Below, piece after piece: positions 23,849-36,595 of a DNA stretch of 64,000 bases. Source of the stretch: Clostridiaceae bacterium (GTDB lineage: Bacteria; Bacillota; Clostridia; Oscillospirales; QAMX01); the NCBI GenBank assembly GCA_018384365.1, contig JAHAYX010000054.1, forward strand, positions 1 through 64,000, read 5' to 3'. Each line of letters begins with the position of its first letter. The stretch's first letter is position 1. Below the pieces are notes generated by a model. It saw only the letters and a list, made by a program, of their open reading frames with translations, was not told the origin of the DNA and ran no database searches. Position numbers and translations under genes: made by a program.

Positions 23849-23878
23849 GACCATATACTATCGAAGGCGGTGATCGTG

Positions 23879-24814
23879 ATGGATGTCAAAACTGCTGTGC
23901 TGAAAATGACGGAGAACATTGAAAAAGTATTGGTCGGAAAACGACGTGCTGTGGAACTGGTTCTAACGGCGCTTCTTGCCGGCGGCCATGTCTTGATTGA
24001 GGATGTGCCGGGCGTTGGCAAGACGAGCCTCGCAAATGCCCTTGCCAAGACGATTGACTGCGGCTTTACCCGCATCCAGTTCACGCCGGATACCTTACCG
24101 AGCGACGTGACAGGCGTATCCATTTACAATATGCAAAGCGGCACGTTTGAGTTTTCAAAGGGTGCTGTGATGAATCACATTATCCTGGCGGACGAAATCA
24201 ACCGCACTTCGCCCAAAACGCAGGCAAGCCTGCTGGAGGCTATGGAGGAAGGCCAGGTCACGGTAGACGGCACGACCTACCCGCTGCCCTCGCCTTTCAT
24301 GGTGATTGCCACGCAGAACCCGATTGATTACCTTGGCACTTATAATCTGCCCGAGGCACAACTCGACCGTTTTATGCTGAAGTTTTCCATTGGCTATCCG
24401 GATGCAGTGGATGAACGCGCCATGCTGGCCCGCTATATCTCTGCGCAGCCGCTTAACGAACTGCAGCCCGTGACGGACGGGGACACCATTCTGGCTCTGC
24501 AGAAGGCTGTGCGGGAAGTCAGCGTCCATCCGGATGTGATGGAGTATATCGTTCAGATCGTGGCGGGGACGAGAACGCATCGCTCGCTCTCTCTGGGCGC
24601 AAGCCCGCGTGCCGGCATCGCGCTGGCGCACGCTGCCCAGGCAACGGCCGCAATGCAGGGACGCGATTTTGTCATTCCGGATGATGTGAAAGCAATGGTT
24701 TCGCCTGTCCTCTTCCATCGTCTGGTTCTGACGCCGGAGGCGCGTTTGGAGCATCAGACCACCAAATCCATTCTGGACAGTATTTTGTCCGGAATCAAAG
24801 TCCCGGTGTTTTAA
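23879..24814 (+). CDS. MoxR-family AAA+ ATPase
   Basis: This 311-residue AAA+ protein has Walker A GVGKT near residue 44, Walker B with DEINR near 105, and the family's pre-sensor region EAMEEGQVTVDG. MoxR ATPases act as chaperone-like factors and are nearly always encoded with DUF58 and transglutaminase or VWA proteins, as here. The ATG at 23879 is chosen because AAGGCGG lies about nine bases upstream; GTG at 23870 would abut it. First gene of the moxR-DUF58-transglutaminase operon, 15 bases before the next gene. Confidence 0.93.
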   Translation: MDVKTAVLKMTENIEKVLVGKRRAVELVLTALLAGGHVLIEDVPGVGKTSLANALAKTIDCGFTRIQFTPDTLPSDVTGVSIYNMQSGTFEFSKGAVMNHIILADEINRTSPKTQASLLEAMEEGQVTVDGTTYPLPSPFMVIATQNPIDYLGTYNLPEAQLDRFMLKFSIGYPDAVDERAMLARYISAQPLNELQPVTDGDTILALQKAVREVSVHPDVMEYIVQIVAGTRTHRSLSLGASPRAGIALAHAAQATAAMQGRDFVIPDDVKAMVSPVLFHRLVLTPEARLEHQTTKSILDSILSGIKVPVF

Positions 24815-24829
24815 TGTTGAAGGGTTGGT

Positions 24830-26047
24830 GTGCAAATGCTGCGTAACCGCCTGATTCTGGTGGCTGCAATCCTTGCAGCCGGTGTTTTTGCAAGCTTTTA
24901 TGGGGGCAACATCCCATATGCCCTGTTTTATCTGACACTTTTGATCCCACTGGTATCCCTGCTCTATACGCTGTATGTTTATCTGCGCGTGAAGGTGTAT
25001 CAGATGATTGACAGCGTGGTTTTGGTGAAAGGGGAGTCCTCCGCCTATACCTTCCGCGTGGCAAATGAAGATTTTTTGTCCTATCAAAACCTGAAGATCA
25101 ATTTTTATACGGGAATGTCCTCGGTCGAGGGGGCAGAGCAGCAGATGAGCTATTGCCTGCTGCCGGGAGAAAGCATTTCGATGGAAACGCGTCTGGCCTG
25201 CCATTACAGAGGCATTTACAATGTGGGCGCCCGCTCCATCGAGATCACGGACCTTTTTAACCTGTTTCAGCTTTCCTATCCGATCCGCAGCCGCAACAGC
25301 GTGACGGTTTTACCGCGCAGAGTCCGGCTCTCCTCCTTAAATATCCTGCCGCAGGACGAGGACTCCAAAAATGTGCTGTTCCATACCCGCGCAAAGGCAG
25401 AGGAACTGGACATTGATATGCGTAAATATGTGCCGGGCGACTCCAGACGGCTGGTGCACTGGAAAGCAACGGCCAGACGGGGCGAATTGATGAGCCGTCA
25501 GTACACGGAAACCATGAAGCTGGGCGTTTTACTTTGCATGGACCTCACCCCTACCGGTCTGCGCGACTGGCTGGAACGCGCGGAAAGAGAGGACAAGATC
25601 ATAGAAAGCAGCATTGCCATTGCGGATTATTGCCTTGCGCACCGTATTCCCTGTGACGTTTGGTTTGCTGCGGAAAATGACGTGCAAAAAGCGCCTGCCC
25701 GCACGGCACAGGAAATGGATGCTTTCTATAATCTGTGCGGCCGGCTTGCCTTTACCGCCAAGGAGGGCGCCGGTAAGGTAATCAGCCGCTCGCTGGAGCA
25801 GCAGGTGGGTGCGTATCGTTATCTGGTGATCACGCATACGCTGGACGGTGACCTGTACAGCGCTTCCGTGAAAGCTGCGGCGCGCGGAAATGAAGTGGCT
25901 GTTGTGCTGATGTGCGATGCCCTGACGGAGGAACAGCAAAGGATCCGTACATACATGAACGAGGCATCCATCCGGGTCGTTCAGATCCAGCACGACCGGG
26001 ATTTTGCGGATGCTTTTGAACAGACGGGGACGGGAGGTGCCGTATGA
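24830..26047 (+). CDS. DUF58 family membrane protein
   Basis: This protein of about 405 residues has two N-terminal membrane helices (about 6-46), a beta-rich middle region and the DUF58 domain, with its hallmark VHWKATARRGELMSRQY near residues 205-220 and a VWA-like fold after it (LCMDLTPTG). The start is GTG at 24830, five bases after GAAGGG, though ATG at 24836 is possible. It is co-transcribed with moxR and overlaps the transglutaminase gene by four bases. The exact role of this gene set is not established; envelope-related assembly or stress is usually proposed. Confidence 0.9.
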   Translation: MQMLRNRLILVAAILAAGVFASFYGGNIPYALFYLTLLIPLVSLLYTLYVYLRVKVYQMIDSVVLVKGESSAYTFRVANEDFLSYQNLKINFYTGMSSVEGAEQQMSYCLLPGESISMETRLACHYRGIYNVGARSIEITDLFNLFQLSYPIRSRNSVTVLPRRVRLSSLNILPQDEDSKNVLFHTRAKAEELDIDMRKYVPGDSRRLVHWKATARRGELMSRQYTETMKLGVLLCMDLTPTGLRDWLERAEREDKIIESSIAIADYCLAHRIPCDVWFAAENDVQKAPARTAQEMDAFYNLCGRLAFTAKEGAGKVISRSLEQQVGAYRYLVITHTLDGDLYSASVKAAARGNEVAVVLMCDALTEEQQRIRTYMNEASIRVVQIQHDRDFADAFEQTGTGGAV

Positions 26048-28488
26048 AGTCATCTGAACGGCGCTATGCCATGCTCCTTCGTAATATCACGTCCGTTCTC
26101 ATGGTGTTTGCCGTCACGTCGGCACTGAACACCTATTTCCTGCTGGAAATCAGCCCGCTATTTCTCTGCGTGGCTGCGGTGGCGGCGGACATTCTGTTTT
26201 TGTTCTTCGACCGGTTCAAGAAAAAGAAAGCGTTGTGGATTGCGCTGGCAGTGGTGATTGCAGCCGCCGCGCTGATCATGGAATTGGCGGGCGAATCGGC
26301 CCGTGTGCTGCTGCGGGAAGCCGGAGCGTGGATACGCGGCGCGGCAGACTGGTTTATCCTGCACTGCGCGGGCGATGAGGAGGCTCTTTTTCAGCCGGCC
26401 TTCGCGCTTTTCTTTGCCTGCCTGGGTACCCTGGGCTGCACGGCCCTGTGTTATCCGCTGACGTTTCATCTGTACTCCCGGCTTGCTCTTTCGGCGCTGG
26501 CGCTGGCTGCCGTGATTGTCCTGCCGGTTATGGATATCCCGCTGGGAAAGCTGCCGCTGGCCTGTGTCGGTATCTGCCTGGTGTCGTCCGTGATTGAACT
26601 GGTCAATTTACAGTTCGACCGGCACCGCGTGGAATCCAAGCGCAGTGCGGGACTTTTTCTGTATCCCGTCAGTGTGCTTCTGATTGTGATTGCTGTGCTG
26701 TTGCCCGCCCGGGAAACGCCAATACGCTGGCAGGCGGTGCGAAACCTCCTGAATGAGATCTCCGTGAATATGGAAACGGTGGAGACAACGTTGAAAATTT
26801 GGTTTGGTGCAATCCCGGAGAAATTCAGCGTCACATTCAACGGCATGAGCTTCACGGACGAGGATGGCAGCGTGAACGCGAATGACTATGCCGTTTTTCT
26901 GCGCGTTTCCACCAACAGCAAGACCCGATCCCCGATTTATCTGCGCGGCAGTATCAGCAGTACCTATACCGGTACGGGATGGGAGGATGAATCGGAAAGC
27001 GTCTTTACGGAGCGCGAACCGGAAATTGAGTTTTATGAGACGCTGTACTCCATGCTGCGCTCCGGGCTGATGCCGGAACGCGGGGAGGATATTTATAAAC
27101 GCACGATGCTGACGATCGAGTTTGACGATATCATCACGAAGAGCGTGCTGTACAGTGCGCCGCTCAGCCAGGTGGACACGGACAAAAAAGCGGAGTATTC
27201 GATCTACGGACCCAATCTGCGGTTTCAGAGGATGCAGAAAATCGGCCTTGAATATACCATGTCGTATTTTGAAACCAACTGGGGCAGTCCGACGCTGACG
27301 GAATATCTGCGCAGCCTGACAGGTTTCCGCTATGTGGACGACGATACGGATTTCGACAGCCTGCGTGCCATAAACGGCAGTGCCGTTCGGCCGATGATCC
27401 TGGCACTCAATGAGCCGGATCCGGACTATTTCAACAGCGGGCTCACAGATCGCCTGGCGGAACGTGCGCGCACGATTCGGGAGGTCTATACGCAGCTGCC
27501 GGACGAACTGCCCGAGCGCGTGTACGACCTTGCACGGGAAATAACAAAGGACTGCGAAACGACTTACGATAAAATTCTGGCCATTGAGGACTATTTTCAG
27601 GAGGGCTATACCTATTCGCTGACTCCGCTGGCCTTCCCGGAGGACCGGGACTTCACCGACTGGTTCTTATTTGACGCCGACGAAGGCTACTGCACGTATT
27701 ATGCAACAGCGGCTGCGGTGTTGGCGCGGTGCGTCGGTTTGCCGGCGCGGTATGTCGAAGGCGTAAGCCTTACAGATACGCTGAACTCCCGCGAGGTTGC
27801 AGAGTTGACCAACCAGAACGTGCATGCCTGGGTGGAGGTGTATCTCGAAGGCTATGGCTGGATCCTGATTGAACCGACACCCGGTTCCGGGGCCGGACGC
27901 AACCAGGAATGGGAGCGCAGACTTCCGGTAACAGGTGACGCGAGCAGCTCCATGCCGGAAATGCCGCCGGAGGAACCGCCGGCGGAGATCACGCCTCCGC
28001 CTGAAACAGACGGTCCCAGTGCGGCTGAATTGGCGGCGCTTGCGGCGCTTCGCCGCGCGCAGATGAAGCGCTTCTGGATGTTTATGACGTTGGCGGCTGT
28101 GGGACTCATCCTGGTGCTGGCAGTGACGGCACTGCTGCTCTCACGCAGAGCAAAGACAAAACGGTATAACCGTGCACCGGACAACGAAAAAATCCGGATC
28201 CTGATGCGCGAAATTCTCCGCTGTGTGGCAATTACCGGGATTCACAGGCGGGAGGATGAAACCCTTATAGAGTATGTGCAGCGGGCCGGACTTGGCTTTG
28301 ATTATTCCGACATGAAACTGGCGGATGCAGCCATGCTTTTTATGAAGGTGCGTTATGCGGGGAAAGACGCCACACGCATGGAAGTGCTTGCCATGTACCG
28401 CTATGCACGGGAACTGCGCCGCGAAACACTGCGGCAGCAGAACGTGCTGAAGCGTATGGTTTTTACCGTACAGCAATATGTCCTGTAA
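26044..28488 (+). CDS. Membrane-anchored transglutaminase-like protein
   Basis: This 814-residue protein starts with about five or six membrane helices (residues about 10-220). A large extracellular region contains a transglutaminase-like cysteine-peptidase fold with Cys550 (EGYCTYYA), His594 (HAWVEV) and the acidic residue in WILIEPTPG (about 610). A Pro/Glu-rich stretch (about 640-665), one more membrane helix (about 676-702) and a cytoplasmic DUF4129-like tail follow. Glu in place of Asp in the triad is common in this subfamily. It overlaps the DUF58 gene (ATGA) and closes the operon at a terminator. Substrate is unknown. Confidence 0.92.
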   Translation: MKSSERRYAMLLRNITSVLMVFAVTSALNTYFLLEISPLFLCVAAVAADILFLFFDRFKKKKALWIALAVVIAAAALIMELAGESARVLLREAGAWIRGAADWFILHCAGDEEALFQPAFALFFACLGTLGCTALCYPLTFHLYSRLALSALALAAVIVLPVMDIPLGKLPLACVGICLVSSVIELVNLQFDRHRVESKRSAGLFLYPVSVLLIVIAVLLPARETPIRWQAVRNLLNEISVNMETVETTLKIWFGAIPEKFSVTFNGMSFTDEDGSVNANDYAVFLRVSTNSKTRSPIYLRGSISSTYTGTGWEDESESVFTEREPEIEFYETLYSMLRSGLMPERGEDIYKRTMLTIEFDDIITKSVLYSAPLSQVDTDKKAEYSIYGPNLRFQRMQKIGLEYTMSYFETNWGSPTLTEYLRSLTGFRYVDDDTDFDSLRAINGSAVRPMILALNEPDPDYFNSGLTDRLAERARTIREVYTQLPDELPERVYDLAREITKDCETTYDKILAIEDYFQEGYTYSLTPLAFPEDRDFTDWFLFDADEGYCTYYATAAAVLARCVGLPARYVEGVSLTDTLNSREVAELTNQNVHAWVEVYLEGYGWILIEPTPGSGAGRNQEWERRLPVTGDASSSMPEMPPEEPPAEITPPPETDGPSAAELAALAALRRAQMKRFWMFMTLAAVGLILVLAVTALLLSRRAKTKRYNRAPDNEKIRILMREILRCVAITGIHRREDETLIEYVQRAGLGFDYSDMKLADAAMLFMKVRYAGKDATRMEVLAMYRYARELRRETLRQQNVLKRMVFTVQQYVL

Positions 28489-28644: not shown

Positions 28645-29385
28645 ATGAGCGAAATGGAACTGTTCAGAGCACAATTGGCTGATTTAGGTGTGCAAAACGG
28701 GGATGTTGTGCTGGTACATTCCTCGATGAAAGCACTGGGAACGCGGCGCACACCGGAAGAGGTGATTGCGGATTTGCAGGCTGCAGTAGGGGAGGAGGGA
28801 ACGCTTTTGTTCCCTGCGCTGACCTATGACAACGTGACGGCAGAGCAGCCGGTTTTTTCGAGTGAGGAGACAGAACCGTGCATTGGTCTGCTGCCGCGGG
28901 TTTTTATGCGGCTGCCGGGCGTCATGCGCAGCGAAAACCCCACACATTCCGTCTGCGCACGCGGGCGGTTGGCCAGGGAACTGACCAGCCTGCACGAGAA
29001 GGATGATACAGCGGTCGGTCCACATTCGCCGTTTATGCTGCTGCCCCTGTATGCGGGAAAGCTCCTCTTTCTGGGTGACGTTCTGGATGCCTGCACGTTT
29101 ATGCATGGCGTTGAGGATATCGTCCGTGCGCCGTATCTGCGTGATGTACCGGAACGGTATGTGGTAAACGGCAAGGAGCGAATCTACTGCCGTCGTGACA
29201 ACTATGGCTGGGGCTCGGAATTCGGGCGTATTGCCGATATTTTATCGGAACCGGATCTCCGAAAAGGCAAGGTGGGAGCGGCCAATGCGTATCTGGTTGA
29301 TACGCGCGCCCTGCTTGCCGCGGCTATTTCTCGTATGCGAGAGGATCCCTATGCGTTTGTAACGGATATTTCGCGTTGGCTCTGA
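28645..29385 (+). CDS. AAC(3)/YokD-family N-acetyltransferase
   Basis: This 246-residue protein belongs to the acetyl-CoA-dependent aminoglycoside 3-N-acetyltransferase (AAC(3)) family. It shows the opening VLVHSSMKALG, the phosphopantetheine-binding region GTLLFPALTYD, NPTHSVCARG and the PHSPF segment. Chromosomal members such as YokD often lack strong aminoglycoside activity, so resistance should not be assumed. AAAAGGTG precedes the ATG. It is monocistronic, with a bidirectional terminator shared with the converging GntR operon. Base composition resembles the neighbourhood, so there is no sign of recent transfer. Confidence 0.88.
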   Translation: MSEMELFRAQLADLGVQNGDVVLVHSSMKALGTRRTPEEVIADLQAAVGEEGTLLFPALTYDNVTAEQPVFSSEETEPCIGLLPRVFMRLPGVMRSENPTHSVCARGRLARELTSLHEKDDTAVGPHSPFMLLPLYAGKLLFLGDVLDACTFMHGVEDIVRAPYLRDVPERYVVNGKERIYCRRDNYGWGSEFGRIADILSEPDLRKGKVGAANAYLVDTRALLAAAISRMREDPYAFVTDISRWL

Positions 29386-32348: not shown

Positions 32349-32388
32349 GAAAAGCCCCCTGACAGGAGATCCTGCCAGGGGGCTTTTG
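32349..32388. terminator. Bidirectional terminator between the DUF1846 and AEC genes
   Basis: A 12-bp stem AAAAGCCCCCTG/CAGGGGGCTTTT with a secondary stem CAGGA/TCCTG in the loop serves two convergent genes. Confidence 0.88.
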
Positions 32389-32397
32389 TTAACCGGA

Positions 32398-33333
32398 TCA
32401 GATCAGACCCAGTGATTTGGTCAGTAAGACGATGAGAAAAATTGTGAAAATGGAAAATGCAGTAGTAAAAACGACCTGCTGACCCGCCAGTTCTCCGTCG
32501 GCGTCCATCTGCTGCGCCATCGTATACGAGGAAACGGCGGACGGTGCCATGAAAAGCACCATCATGGAAACCAGTTCAATTCCCCGGAAGCCGCAGAGTA
32601 CGGCGGCGGTAATGAAAATCAGCGGCATCACGATCAGCTTTCCCACGACGCCGATGGTAAGCGCGCGCAGGTTTGCACTGACCTTTGAAAATTCCATGGC
32701 GCCGCCCAGCAGGAAGAGCGCAAACGGTGTTGCGATCCCGGCCAGATCGGAGATTGCTTTTTCGACAGGCGTTGGGAAACGTATGCCAGAGACCAGAGCC
32801 AGAAGGCCCAGAAGAGAACTGATGATGAGCGGATTTTTGGCAATGCCCAGCAGGATTTTGCGGAAATTGACCTTTCCGCCCCGGAAAACCTCCAGCGCAA
32901 TGACCGAAAGTACGTTAAACATCGGCACGACGACTGCCACAAGAAGCGATGTGGTGGCCATCTCGCCGCCGCAGAGCATTTCCGCCATCGGCATACCAAA
33001 CAACACGAAATTGCTGCGCCCGATGCCCTGGATCAAAACGCCGCGCCGCCGGTTCTCCTTTTCAATCAGCGGGATGACGGCAAACAGCAGGCCGAACATG
33101 GCCAGAACGCTGATGACGGCGAACAGGAACACGCGTCCGTTGATTTCTGCCTCCAGGCTGGTGGTGTAAATGTTTTTAAACAGGAGGACTGGCAAAAACA
33201 GCTTAAACACAAGTTTGTTCATCACGGCGTGCGCTTTTTTATCATACAGTTTGATTTGCCGGGTAAAATAACCGACCGCCATCAATAAAAACAACGGAAG
33301 GACAACATTGACGGATAAAATCAGATTCTCCAA
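32398..33333 (-). CDS. AEC-family (auxin efflux carrier-like) transporter
   Basis: This 311-residue membrane protein has about ten hydrophobic segments in two halves, as in the AEC family, whose bacterial members export or import organic acids such as malate or malonate. Substrate is unknown. The start is TTG at 33333, with AGAGG about nine bases upstream; no ATG fits. It lies about 100 bases downstream of the zinc-ribbon membrane gene on the same strand, without a clear terminator between, so it may be the last gene of that operon. Confidence 0.88.
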   Translation of the reverse strand: MENLILSVNVVLPLFLLMAVGYFTRQIKLYDKKAHAVMNKLVFKLFLPVLLFKNIYTTSLEAEINGRVFLFAVISVLAMFGLLFAVIPLIEKENRRRGVLIQGIGRSNFVLFGMPMAEMLCGGEMATTSLLVAVVVPMFNVLSVIALEVFRGGKVNFRKILLGIAKNPLIISSLLGLLALVSGIRFPTPVEKAISDLAGIATPFALFLLGGAMEFSKVSANLRALTIGVVGKLIVMPLIFITAAVLCGFRGIELVSMMVLFMAPSAVSSYTMAQQMDADGELAGQQVVFTTAFSIFTIFLIVLLTKSLGLI

Positions 33334-33432: not shown

Positions 33433-34149
33433 TCAGAGGAAAAACTTTTGAATCAACTTTTCCTTCAGCGGTTTGTTGCGGTCGATATACAGCATTACGG
33501 CACCAAGCAGCAGGAATGTAATCAACGGATAGCTTGACCAGGCAATTGTGCTGCGCAGATGAAACGCAAAGTTGAGCAGCAGTTCAAGGGCCAGACAAAA
33601 GACGCCGGTGCAGATGACCGCTATGGCCGAAATAGCCAGGCGGGAGAGTTCCGTTCGCAGCGCTATCAGGTTGATGGCAATCACAATTGCCGCTGTGAGA
33701 ACCGTGACCGGCAGGGCAAAGGTCCAGAACCACGTGCCGCCGGTTTCCCATTCGATGTATTTCAGCAGCAGGAGCAGGGAAAGAAAGTCCAGCGAAAGAG
33801 AGAGCACGGAATTGTGCCGCGACGGCCGTGCGGAGAGCAAAAGCGGAACCGCAATGGTGACATAAAGCTGCAAAAACGCACCCACCACATAGCCGGACCA
33901 GACGATCCGGTGATTGATGCTGGCATCGCAGACAACACACAGCAAAATGGGAATCAAAAAAATCAGGGTCAGAAGGCCGACGAGCGATTGACGGCTGACC
34001 TGCTGTTGGGTCCGCACGGGATGCGGAGGAAACGGCGGCAGGACGTCCTTTTTCTTCCCGGCGCGGGGATCTATCACTTCGGTGCCGCAGAGCGGGCACT
34101 TTTTTTCGCTGTCTGCAAGCTCTACGCCGCAGTGCACACAATATGACAT
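33433..34149 (-). CDS. Zinc-ribbon multi-pass membrane protein (DUF6320-like)
   Basis: This 238-residue protein begins with a zinc ribbon (Cys4, Cys7, Cys18, Cys21) of the kind found in many Firmicute membrane proteins, then a Pro-rich linker and about six membrane helices from residue 55. It lies 17 bases after the acyltransferase gene on the same strand. The same three genes (esterase-like hydrolase, HxxxDG acyltransferase, zinc-ribbon membrane protein) occur together in other clostridia as far as I recall, which suggests a joint envelope-lipid or ester-related role, but no activity is established. Confidence 0.78.
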   Translation of the reverse strand: MSYCVHCGVELADSEKKCPLCGTEVIDPRAGKKKDVLPPFPPHPVRTQQQVSRQSLVGLLTLIFLIPILLCVVCDASINHRIVWSGYVVGAFLQLYVTIAVPLLLSARPSRHNSVLSLSLDFLSLLLLLKYIEWETGGTWFWTFALPVTVLTAAIVIAINLIALRTELSRLAISAIAVICTGVFCLALELLLNFAFHLRSTIAWSSYPLITFLLLGAVMLYIDRNKPLKEKLIQKFFL

Positions 34150-34166
34150 CCGGATATTCCTCCTTT

Positions 34167-35447
34167 TTAGCGCTGATTGCTCTCAATGGTGACGGAGAGG
34201 CCCAGACGGCGCAGCCGTGTGAAAAACTCCCGCTCCAGCTCCGGCTCTTCGATGCTGCGCGTGAAATTGATAATTAGGTGATCGCCATAGGTCAGGGCAC
34301 CGCAGTTGTTTGGACAGACCGCCTGCGCACCCAGAACAAAATCCAGCCTGTCCACATAGGACTGCATTTCCACAGGCAGCGCCGCCGCACCGAGATTAGA
34401 AAATGCAATGCACGACTTTTTTTCACCGACCATGTTATATACGAGCTTCATGGCGACATTTTTCAGGAAAAGCGGCACAATTTTCAGCGCCCACGACTTT
34501 TCCGATCGGACGTTGACGGTGATGCGCGCGCTCATTTGCTTCTGCGTCAGTTCCACGCCCATCTGGTGATGGACGGATTTCAGCACTTCCTCGAGCGTAT
34601 AGTCTCCCATTTTGGGATCAATCCCGGGCGTGACATAAAGAACGAAATTGCGCAGCGTGCTGCTGTCGAAAAACTTGCGCAGGTTCACCGGGACAAGCAC
34701 TTTCACAGGCTTTTGCTGGCGCCTGTTTGGCACGTGGCGGTTTTGAATGGCGAGGATGGACATCATCATGACGGATACCATCAGCGTTGTCAGGCTGACC
34801 TGATAGCGTTTTGCCAGCGCCAGAACCTCCTGCACATCCAGTATGCCGGTTGTGAGATTCAGATAGCCGTCCCATTCACGTGTGCCGGGCAGCAGATAGG
34901 CGGTTTCCTCCCGCCGGCTTTTGCTGACGGGACCTTCATTCTGCAGAAAACTGTCCACAAGCTCCCGTTCGTCCGGTTCCTCACTGCGGTCCAGCACACC
35001 GTCCGTATTGGCGATGGAAACGCCGTATTTTTGCGTGATGTATTCCGCAGTGAGCGTTTTTAAAAAGACCAGCCCGCCGTTTCCGTCAGTCAATGCGTGA
35101 AAAAACTCCACGGCAATCCGGTTTTCATAGTAGAGCACACGGAAGGCACAGCGCCGCAGCTCGGAAAAACTGCGGTGCGCAAGGGGATAGGACTGCTCAC
35201 GCTCGATTTTGGGCGCCTGCGCAAGCTCCTCCAGGTAGTACCAGAACATCCCACGCCGTATCCGCACGGCAATGGAGGGGAAGCGCCGGACGGTTACATC
35301 CAGCGCGGACTGCAGAACGAGCGGATCGACGGGATCACGAAGCGTTGCGGAAAGGCGGAACAGATTGTTCCAGTTGCGCCGTTTTGCCGCCGGATAAATT
35401 TTTGCAGCGTTATCCAGACGCATCCAGCGCAGTTCACGGTCTGCCAT
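34167..35447 (-). CDS. HxxxDG-type acyltransferase / condensation-like protein
   Basis: This 426-residue protein belongs to the chloramphenicol-acetyltransferase-like superfamily, which includes alcohol acetyltransferases, wax ester synthases, PapA proteins and NRPS condensation domains. The catalytic motif is His117-ALT-Asp121-Gly122 (FFHALTDGNGG), with Phe in place of the first His of the canonical HHxxxDG. Two lobes are expected, with a second hallmark near the middle (VPVNLRKFF). It overlaps the upstream hydrolase gene by 14 bases. No carrier protein or NRPS module is near, so an acyl-CoA-dependent ester-forming enzyme is the simplest reading. Confidence 0.82.
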   Translation of the reverse strand: MADRELRWMRLDNAAKIYPAAKRRNWNNLFRLSATLRDPVDPLVLQSALDVTVRRFPSIAVRIRRGMFWYYLEELAQAPKIEREQSYPLAHRSFSELRRCAFRVLYYENRIAVEFFHALTDGNGGLVFLKTLTAEYITQKYGVSIANTDGVLDRSEEPDERELVDSFLQNEGPVSKSRREETAYLLPGTREWDGYLNLTTGILDVQEVLALAKRYQVSLTTLMVSVMMMSILAIQNRHVPNRRQQKPVKVLVPVNLRKFFDSSTLRNFVLYVTPGIDPKMGDYTLEEVLKSVHHQMGVELTQKQMSARITVNVRSEKSWALKIVPLFLKNVAMKLVYNMVGEKKSCIAFSNLGAAALPVEMQSYVDRLDFVLGAQAVCPNNCGALTYGDHLIINFTRSIEEPELEREFFTRLRRLGLSVTIESNQR

Positions 35448-36333
35448 CGCCTGCCTCCTTCAAAAATTTCGAAATTTTTTCGTGGTCCTTTTTGGATTCC
35501 CGGACGCCATAAAGCACATAGCCATGCCACATTCCCGGCGTGACGACCAGCTCGCTGGGGCTGCCCGCCTCCAAAAGGCGTTTGTGCAGCTGCACGGCGT
35601 CGTCCAGCAGGATCTCATCTCCGCCTGCGAAAATGAGCGACGGGGGCATGTGGTCCAATTCGCCGAAAAGAGGGGAAAGGAAGGGATTGGTGCAGGGCTC
35701 TTCGGCTGCATAAAGCTGCGCATAATAAGCCAGACGCTCACGCGTCATGGAGGGGTCACATTCGCGGTTGGTTTCATAGGAAGCGCCGGACGCCGTGAGG
35801 TCTGTCCAGGGTGAAATGGCGATGATGCCTGCCGGAAGCGCACGTCCGGCAACTTTCAGCCGCAGCGTGAGCGCATAGCTCAGCCCGCCGCCGGCTGATT
35901 CGCCGCAGAGAAAGATCTGATGGCTCTCATAGCCGTTTTCCAGCAGATATTCATATGCCGTCATGGCGTCCTCCAAAGCGGCGGGATAGGGATACTCCGG
36001 CGCAAGGCGATAAGCCGCGCAAAAAACCTTCATGCTGTTCTTTGCGGCCAGTATGGTGCCGAATCCTTTGGCGTAGTCAATATCCCCCGCCACGTAACCG
36101 CCGCCGTGCAGATACAGAATCACACAGTCGCTTGCCTGCTGCTTCGGCGCGATCCATTCGCCGATGAAATTGCGGAAAATCTGCGGGGAATACAGGACTT
36201 TGCTTTTATGGGTGTTTGCCATCAGTTCGCCGAGCTTTGCCTGCCCCATCCGGGCGGTTTCAATCGTGCAGCCATTTACAAAAGGCTTGAAAAATGCAAG
36301 CTGCATACGCAGCAGTTTTGTCGATATCGCCAT
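35434..36333 (-). CDS. Alpha/beta hydrolase, Aes/HSL-type esterase
   Basis: This 299-residue serine esterase has the hormone-sensitive-lipase type oxyanion motif HGGG (76-79), the nucleophile Ser146 in GESAGG, Asp239 (GGDE) and His270 (MWHGYV), a full catalytic triad. No signal peptide is present. Typical substrates are short-chain acyl esters. GAAAGGAAG precedes the ATG. It heads the operon esterase - acyltransferase - zinc-ribbon membrane protein (- AEC transporter) and runs divergently from the cad operon. Confidence 0.9.
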   Translation of the reverse strand: MAISTKLLRMQLAFFKPFVNGCTIETARMGQAKLGELMANTHKSKVLYSPQIFRNFIGEWIAPKQQASDCVILYLHGGGYVAGDIDYAKGFGTILAAKNSMKVFCAAYRLAPEYPYPAALEDAMTAYEYLLENGYESHQIFLCGESAGGGLSYALTLRLKVAGRALPAGIIAISPWTDLTASGASYETNRECDPSMTRERLAYYAQLYAAEEPCTNPFLSPLFGELDHMPPSLIFAGGDEILLDDAVQLHKRLLEAGSPSELVVTPGMWHGYVLYGVRESKKDHEKISKFLKEAGDGRP

Positions 36334-36468: not shown

Positions 36469-36541
36469 GAATTTGCAAATTGAACAGAGAATGTGACGCA
36501 GTCCGCAATTTCGTCAGTCAATTCAACGAATTTGCAAATTG
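36469..36541. repeat. Two 14-bp direct repeats with palindromic core
   Basis: GAATTTGCAAATTG occurs at 36469-36482 and 36528-36541, 59 bases apart centre to centre. The core AATTTGCAAATT is fully palindromic, as expected for a dimeric regulator binding between the divergent esterase and cad operons. Confidence 0.7.
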
Positions 36542-36544
36542 GTA

Positions 36545-36595
36545 TTGACAATTGAGCACCTGTTCAATTATAATACGATTGAAAGGTGATTCAAT
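36545..36595 (+). promoter_or_regulatory. cad operon promoter with two CadC-type operators
   Basis: TTGACA (36545-36550) and TATAAT (36569-36574) are 18 bp apart. The spacer itself is an 18-bp inverted repeat of the form ATTGA-n8-TCAAT (36551-36568), and a second copy (36578-36595) lies at the transcription start. ArsR/SmtB proteins bind such repeats and leave on metal binding. Confidence 0.8.

Follow-up and report, generated by a model that had tools for sequence, protein, structure and literature searches.

A clostridial HxxxDG acyltransferase is paired with the zinc-ribbon membrane protein DUF6320 and often accompanied by, or fused to, an esterase

In this study, we analysed a stretch of 64,000 nucleotides (the window) from contig JAHAYX010000054.1 of a Clostridiaceae bacterium (assembly GCA_018384365.1), and focused on a set of three genes on the minus strand at positions 33433-36333. 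In the direction of transcription they encode a hormone-sensitive-lipase-type (HSL) alpha/beta hydrolase, or esterase (EST, 299 amino acids (aa), 35434-36333), an HxxxDG acyltransferase (AT, 426 aa, 34167-35447) and a membrane protein with a zinc ribbon and six helices (DUF6320, 238 aa, 33433-34149). We found that the conserved core of the set is the pair AT-DUF6320 and that the esterase is often present yet dispensable, because DUF6320 is a near-constant neighbour of AT in relatives (97 of 100 loci) and a hydrolase is missing beside AT in 33 of the 100. We are confident that the three genes work together. As the best explanation of the set, we propose a membrane-associated module for the acetylation and deacetylation of a bulky hydroxylated compound, a reading to which we give an even chance.

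In the proposed mechanism, the module would work on the cytosolic side of the membrane. There, AT would transfer an acetyl group, or another short acyl group, from coenzyme A (CoA) to a hydroxyl group on a small molecule that is bulky and probably aromatic, or hydrophobic in another way. As a serine esterase, EST would take the acyl group off again, and the pair would set the share of the compound present as ester. DUF6320 would most likely dock AT to the membrane or to a lipophilic substrate, with export of the ester as the alternative. The parts of this proposal differ in strength. EST is very probably an active esterase, and there is a strong case that AT forms esters from a CoA donor. That EST undoes the product of AT is evenly balanced, and that DUF6320 docks AT instead of acting as a transporter is possible, at somewhat less than even. 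We infer the action of EST on the product of AT, the topology and role of DUF6320, and the nature of the acceptor.

The relatives behind these statements were collected by AT similarity alone, from 59 of the 147 genomes of the order (its own genome included), 53 loci of a species collection, 24 of 398 genomes of the phylum and 7 of 14 genomes of one cellulosomal family. In what follows, L-numbers denote loci and G-numbers genomes. Loci with an AT stretch of at most 380 aa or at most 100 bits were dropped beforehand (L064, L103, L104, L105, L106, L107, L109, L110). Copies of the same places (L084, L111-L132, L149, L150, L152, L155), wider stretches (L133-L141) and cohesin loci (L142-L148) were also dropped. 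There were 109 usable AT loci, and 100 after removal of 9 near-identical rows sharing at least 80% of their 5-letter words. A locus was called fused when one open frame ran through without a stop, and the counts are of loci and not of independent events. For many loci the flanks reached only about 1.5 kb, and the absence of a hydrolase means absence beside AT, not from the genome.

The earlier note on this DNA had named rare co-occurrence of the three genes in other genomes as an outcome that would speak against a functional set, and the neighbourhood survey showed the opposite outcome. DUF6320 directly followed AT on the same strand in the 97 loci; among the remaining three, the contig stops short in two, and one locus had no DUF6320 that we could find. 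A hydrolase adjoined AT or was fused to it in 67/100 loci (41 upstream, 22 fused, 4 after DUF6320). Among the 398 phylum genomes, 17 carried AT and DUF6320, seven AT alone, two DUF6320 alone and 372 neither (AT in 24, DUF6320 in 19; Fisher p 1.8e-22, uncorrected for kinship). Moreover, 18 of the 21 DUF6320 places in these genomes adjoin AT, two rows of one broken gene being counted once. The remaining three places are L135 and L136, which carry a helix-turn-helix, and one in G488 that is under the cut-off. Among the seven AT-only genomes, G175 and G391 gave weak matches and the AT of G208 is cut short. Chance adjacency was rejected on the recurring order in relatives collected by AT similarity and on these co-occurrence counts. 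The distances of EST, AT and DUF6320 are also correlated (r 0.88-0.91, 67 loci); we did not use this as evidence, as shared descent alone suffices to explain it.

We also looked for a recurring extra partner among the 28 largest clusters of neighbouring frames in 63 sets, and found no support for one. After the EST/AT and DUF6320 clusters came two clusters of short frames, present in 42 and 11 sets and antisense-like by eye, an ABC ATPase-like group in 9 sets, and a remainder in at most 6. No regulator was seen by eye in more than 3 of the 63 sets among these clusters. In the 14 kb around L103 (L134) we detected no DUF6320 or hydrolase match. Three loci call for separate mention. At L101, the frame after AT resembles another small membrane protein by eye. 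L104 and L109 (G431) are two pieces of a single AT that has DUF6320 as its neighbour, and at L092 824-1494 (G342) DUF6320 is broken into two frames; both could be assembly errors or decay.

The link between EST and AT is closest where the two are one protein. In the window, the genes overlap by 14 bases (35434-35447), and at the same junction relatives have a continuous frame. The 22 fused loci hold EST and AT in a single open frame of about 720 codons, EST first. On the AT tree, built by a quick method with support from the Shimodaira-Hasegawa-like approximate likelihood ratio test (SH-aLRT), the fused state requires at least 4 changes, and the well supported branches alone force 4; this count does not separate gains from losses. 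Thus, the fusion arose or was lost more than once. A candidate fusion of AT to another domain at L029 was rejected, as its upstream open frame looks non-coding by eye and has no EST match.

The hydrolases beside AT are not of one kind. The EST of the window and that of the Clostridium thermocellum-type locus described below share 29.6% identity (79 bits, phmmer), and both match other HSL proteins better (176 bits and 194 bits, respectively; phmmer). Their best NCBIfam models differ, GESAG for the former and LipP1 for the latter, all matches being under the curated cut-offs. At L070, AT falls inside the clade of the window and the hydrolase is nearest to the other (LipP1) subfamily. Since the partner hydrolases belong to different HSL subfamilies, the simplest reading suggested by these comparisons is that different HSL esterases were placed beside AT more than once.

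The order of the two enzymes bears on an alternative, in which EST strips a larger or wrong acyl group and AT then acetylates the freed hydroxyl, a one-way exchange or clean-up with no cycle. In 63 of the 67 hydrolase loci, EST precedes AT, either as a separate upstream gene or as the N-terminal part of a fusion, and the fusion suggests that one molecule is passed from enzyme to enzyme. By title, the solved esterases closest to EST include ones that cleave polyurethane, phthalate or drug esters or that transacylate, which argues for a wide choice of acyl groups in the family. However, the 33 loci with no adjoining EST indicate that EST is not generally needed to expose the acceptor, and in four loci the hydrolase comes after DUF6320. 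We consider one-way exchange unlikely, while leaving it a place among the explanations.

We then turned to the proteins themselves. The earlier note had described an ester hydrolase, an HxxxDG acyltransferase and a zinc-ribbon membrane protein encoded by three linked genes with one 14-base overlap, and both the coordinates and the Pfam and motif results bear this description out. EST matches Abhydrolase_3 (PF07859) with 183 bits against a cut-off of 25. In an alignment of 17 ESTs, the HGGG oxyanion motif (residues 76-79), Ser146 and His270 are invariant and Asp244 is nearly so. The GESAG nucleophile elbow (residues 144-148) is encoded at 35890-35904. With the HGGG motif, GxSxG, a Ser-Asp-His triad and the Abhydrolase_3 profile, EST belongs to the HSL family; its match to the NCBIfam GESAG HSL subfamily is 213.6 bits, under the curated cut-off of 430. 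The best solved relative by sequence is 9izt, the source of the 176 bits given above.

For AT, the assignment as a probable acetyl-CoA:alcohol O-acetyltransferase comes from its motif, from weak to moderate profile matches among family members and from the C. thermocellum-type relative. HxxxDG, the catalytic motif of the CoA-dependent acyltransferase superfamily, stands at residues 117-122 (35082-35099), and H117, D121 and G122 are invariant in 29/29 aligned members. The best Pfam match of the window AT is AATase (PF07247), with 14.4 bits, under the gathering score of 22. This cut-off was passed by one of seven other AT-family proteins scanned singly (L077, 23.5 bits). At E up to 1, the AATase profile matches 18 of the 29 aligned members (best 4.8e-7).

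Profile matches in other directions are the ground for a second alternative, namely lipid synthesis of the PapA or WS/DGAT kind. Here, AT would put a fatty acyl group on a long-chain alcohol, polyol or glycolipid at the membrane, DUF6320 would present the acceptor, and EST would recycle the lipid. PapA_C matches 16 of the 29 members at E up to 1 (best 1.9e-7) and WS_DGAT_C matches 4 (best 5.2e-5); these best members may lie over the gathering cut-offs. In the single scan of the AT of L072, the scores were 17.7 bits for PapA_C (cut-off 30) and 16.5 bits for WS_DGAT_C (cut-off 20.7). When solved structures were searched, the AT profile found a DGAT as its best match (E 0.036), and the window AT as a single sequence found nothing up to E 10. 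The near-constant membrane partner would also suit this explanation. On the other hand, WS/DGAT enzymes have two histidines in the motif and the window AT has one. The window AT itself matches neither PapA_C nor WS_DGAT_C at E up to 10, and no carrier or polyketide family was found among the window neighbours scanned. What AT shares with the PapA and WS/DGAT enzymes is the HxxxDG chemistry and, in some members, the C-terminal profile matches. Furthermore, the tested likely relative uses acetyl-CoA and showed no activity on linear C2-C10 alcohols, and the part of the paper dealing with it mentions no long-chain donors (PMC8112048). Lipid synthesis is a doubtful explanation of the set.

This relative is Clo1313_1074 (WP_003519433.1) of C. 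thermocellum DSM 1313. According to the section on this enzyme in a 2021 paper (PMC8112048), it makes 2-phenylethyl acetate by acetylating 2-phenylethanol with acetyl-CoA, gives no esters when the alcohol is linear (C2-C10), is encoded in the same operon as an esterase/lipase and has an expected size of 50.4 kDa. Genome G972, which is very probably C. thermocellum, carries EST-AT-DUF6320 in the same order as the window (L156). Its AT scores 490.5 bits with our profile and has a mass of 50.45 kDa. Therefore, the AT of L156 and Clo1313_1074 are very likely orthologs, a match made by mass and gene context. The AT profile also matched the 7 genomes of the 14 in the family of G972 mentioned above. 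The L156 system differs from that of the window in its EST, which is separate from AT and falls closest to a different HSL subfamily. The paper works with strain DSM 1313, and its section on the enzyme leaves the DUF6320 partner unmentioned (PMC8112048). The earlier note had stated that no product was known; a product is in print for one probable member (PMC8112048), and the statement holds for the natural product.

Activity on an aromatic alcohol (PMC8112048) also fits a third alternative, in which the set acetylates toxic alcohols or phenols of plant biomass or host diet for export, EST is a broad esterase and, in this genus, an AEC protein is the exporter. The AEC-type transporter gene (Mem_trans, 121.6 bits) lies at 32398-33333 on the minus strand, 99 bases downstream of the DUF6320 gene, and, in this genus alone, may be transcribed with the set as its fourth gene. 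Of the terminator-like stems, the longest by a wide margin comes only after it (hairpin at 32350-32387, minus strand, 17 pairs, 10 of them G-C, T-rich tail; consensus scan only). The patchy distribution, with AT in 24 of the 398 phylum genomes, is also in keeping with detoxification. The earlier note had suggested that an AEC exporter might follow the set. The gene does follow it in the window; among 83 loci, many with short flanks, it adjoins the set only in the window (L001) and in its same-genus relative (L002/L031), and we rejected it as a fourth member. This absence outside the genus counts against detoxification. In addition, the near-constant membrane partner and the fused hydrolase suggest a defined substrate. 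Also counting against detoxification, no regulator was seen by eye in more than 3 of the 63 sets among the 28 largest neighbour clusters. Overall, detoxification appears very unlikely.

DUF6320 matches PF19845 with 36.4 bits (cut-off 29.9) and the PF13240 zinc ribbon with 27.6 bits (cut-off 25). The zinc ribbon, Cys4-Cys7-Cys18-Cys21, is encoded at 34087-34140 on the minus strand, 17 bases separating the gene from that of AT, and its four cysteines are invariant in 42/42 aligned DUF6320 proteins. The structure model, with a mean predicted local distance difference test (pLDDT) of 90.4, has six long helices and a short C-terminal helix. Of the 15 lysines and arginines outside the six helices, 13 fall in the zinc ribbon, in the even-numbered loops or at the C-terminus. 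This hints, in the model, that both ends of DUF6320 may be cytosolic; the hint is weak because the 8 acidic residues share these regions. The best structural alignment (Z 8.4, 106 residues, root-mean-square deviation (rmsd) 3.9) is at a level common for helical bundles.

The membrane part of DUF6320 was also found apart from AT. At L135 (6938-7852), a DUF6320-like membrane part (42.6 bits) is fused to an XRE-type helix-turn-helix that replaces the zinc ribbon. At L136 (6776-7542), such a part (35.3 bits) comes directly after an XRE-type helix-turn-helix in an adjoining frame, by eye. No AT was found beside the membrane part at either locus. These proteins hint that the DUF6320-like part is a shared membrane sensor or anchor module. 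In the open-access papers searched, none turned up that names DUF6320.

Several observations weigh against the acetylation and deacetylation module. A hydrolase was not seen beside AT in the 33 loci, some of them with short flanks, and a hydrolase-less group (L011, L014, L015) is nested among the fused loci on the AT tree; therefore, deacetylation is not essential to the job of AT. The earlier note had called the set a make-and-break pathway: an ester-forming and ester-breaking pair is still the natural reading of it, and the esterase proved not to be obligatory. Nor is DUF6320 universal. G364 has AT without DUF6320 (the only AT-bearing genome of the 99 searched in its order), and no DUF6320 was recognised in family f86 (G280, G310, G385), where only L101 had room to show it. 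The window AT gave no Pfam or NCBIfam match at E 0.001 and misses every Pfam cut-off. For the two-lobed acyltransferase fold, we modelled a fused relative (L037, pLDDT 92.7), whose esterase half filled the structure-search lists. The structure search with DUF6320 gave no match with E <= 0.001. As for the product, the conversion by Clo1313_1074 is whole-cell data, the in vitro data being given as 'not shown' in the section on it (PMC8112048). With 31.5% identity over its length to the AT of L156, the window AT may differ in its choice of acyl group and acceptor. Finally, the family of G972 was picked since its other members are cohesin-rich, and G972 itself lay outside the cohesin search.

In its working, the proposed module resembles the yeast acetylation cycle, in which acetyl-CoA is the donor. 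One enzyme acetylates a bulky hydroxyl compound and an HSL-type enzyme deacetylates it, at the membrane: as described in the part of the source that concerns this cycle, sterols bound for secretion are acetylated by Atf2, and Say1 removes the acetyl group from those that are retained (PMC4076087). In the bacteria, by contrast, the genes sit side by side or are fused, and DUF6320 accompanies them; the sterol belongs to the yeast cycle. We draw the likeness as one of working principle and do not claim homology, because the AATase match of the window AT is under the cut-off and EST matches Say1_Mug180 far more weakly (58 bits, over the cut-off of 21) than Abhydrolase_3. A bolder form of the proposal would be a widespread, so far undescribed membrane module of Clostridia for the acetylation and deacetylation of a single endogenous lipophilic alcohol, as the bacterial counterpart, in its working, of the sterol cycle, with maker and breaker on one polypeptide in some species and DUF6320 gating or exporting the acetylated form. 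We regard this bolder form as improbable, if still worth stating.

Among known systems, the esterase half is close to the bacterial HSL esterases EstD11, EstE5 and Aes72, whose fold it shares (L037 model against 9izt_A: Z 42.8, 291 residues, rmsd 1.8). These are free-standing esterases by title, whereas EST is tied to an acyltransferase.

The activity of one probable AT member is already in print (PMC8112048), the only paper on Clo1313_1074 that turned up in the open-access literature searched. That search returned no account of the three-gene set, of the EST-AT fusion or of a link between DUF6320 and AT. What is new here is a membrane partner for an alcohol acetyltransferase and esterase pair, and the fusion of maker and breaker. 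Two poorly described families, the AT group and DUF6320, are tied together as a testable system found in Clostridia of the gut and in those that degrade biomass, and DUF6320 gains a clear partner in AT. One polypeptide able both to form and to cleave an ester would, if true, be uncommon and simple to assay. The fusion and the near-fixed link to DUF6320 are notable and directly testable, and the chemistry itself is expected. The set may also matter for how clostridial hosts employed in ester production form and lose esters natively.

Upstream of EST, a promoter-like site lies at 36567-36594 on the minus strand, divergent from arsR (10/12 consensus matches, consensus scan only). Before arsR, at 36469-36541, we observed two identical 14-base copies that hold a 12-base palindrome, 59 bases apart from start to start. 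L031 has the same palindromes with the same spacing, also beside arsR. Since they adjoin arsR in L031 and lie about 1 kb from EST there, we rejected them as an operator of the EST-AT-DUF6320 operon and assigned them to arsR; they are possibly operators of the arsR and metal ATPase genes.

Further from the set, the window encodes at 28645-29385 an aminoglycoside 3-N-acetyltransferase family protein (Antibiotic_NAT, 153 bits). It is under the cut-offs of all five NCBI models matched, and its gene is likely not a resistance gene. A trio of MoxR ATPase, DUF58 and transglutaminase genes lies at 23870-28488 on the opposite strand, several kb away from the set, and the same trio directly follows DUF6320 in the C. 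thermocellum-type locus (L156 1477-6050). Its presence near the set in both may be a coincidence.

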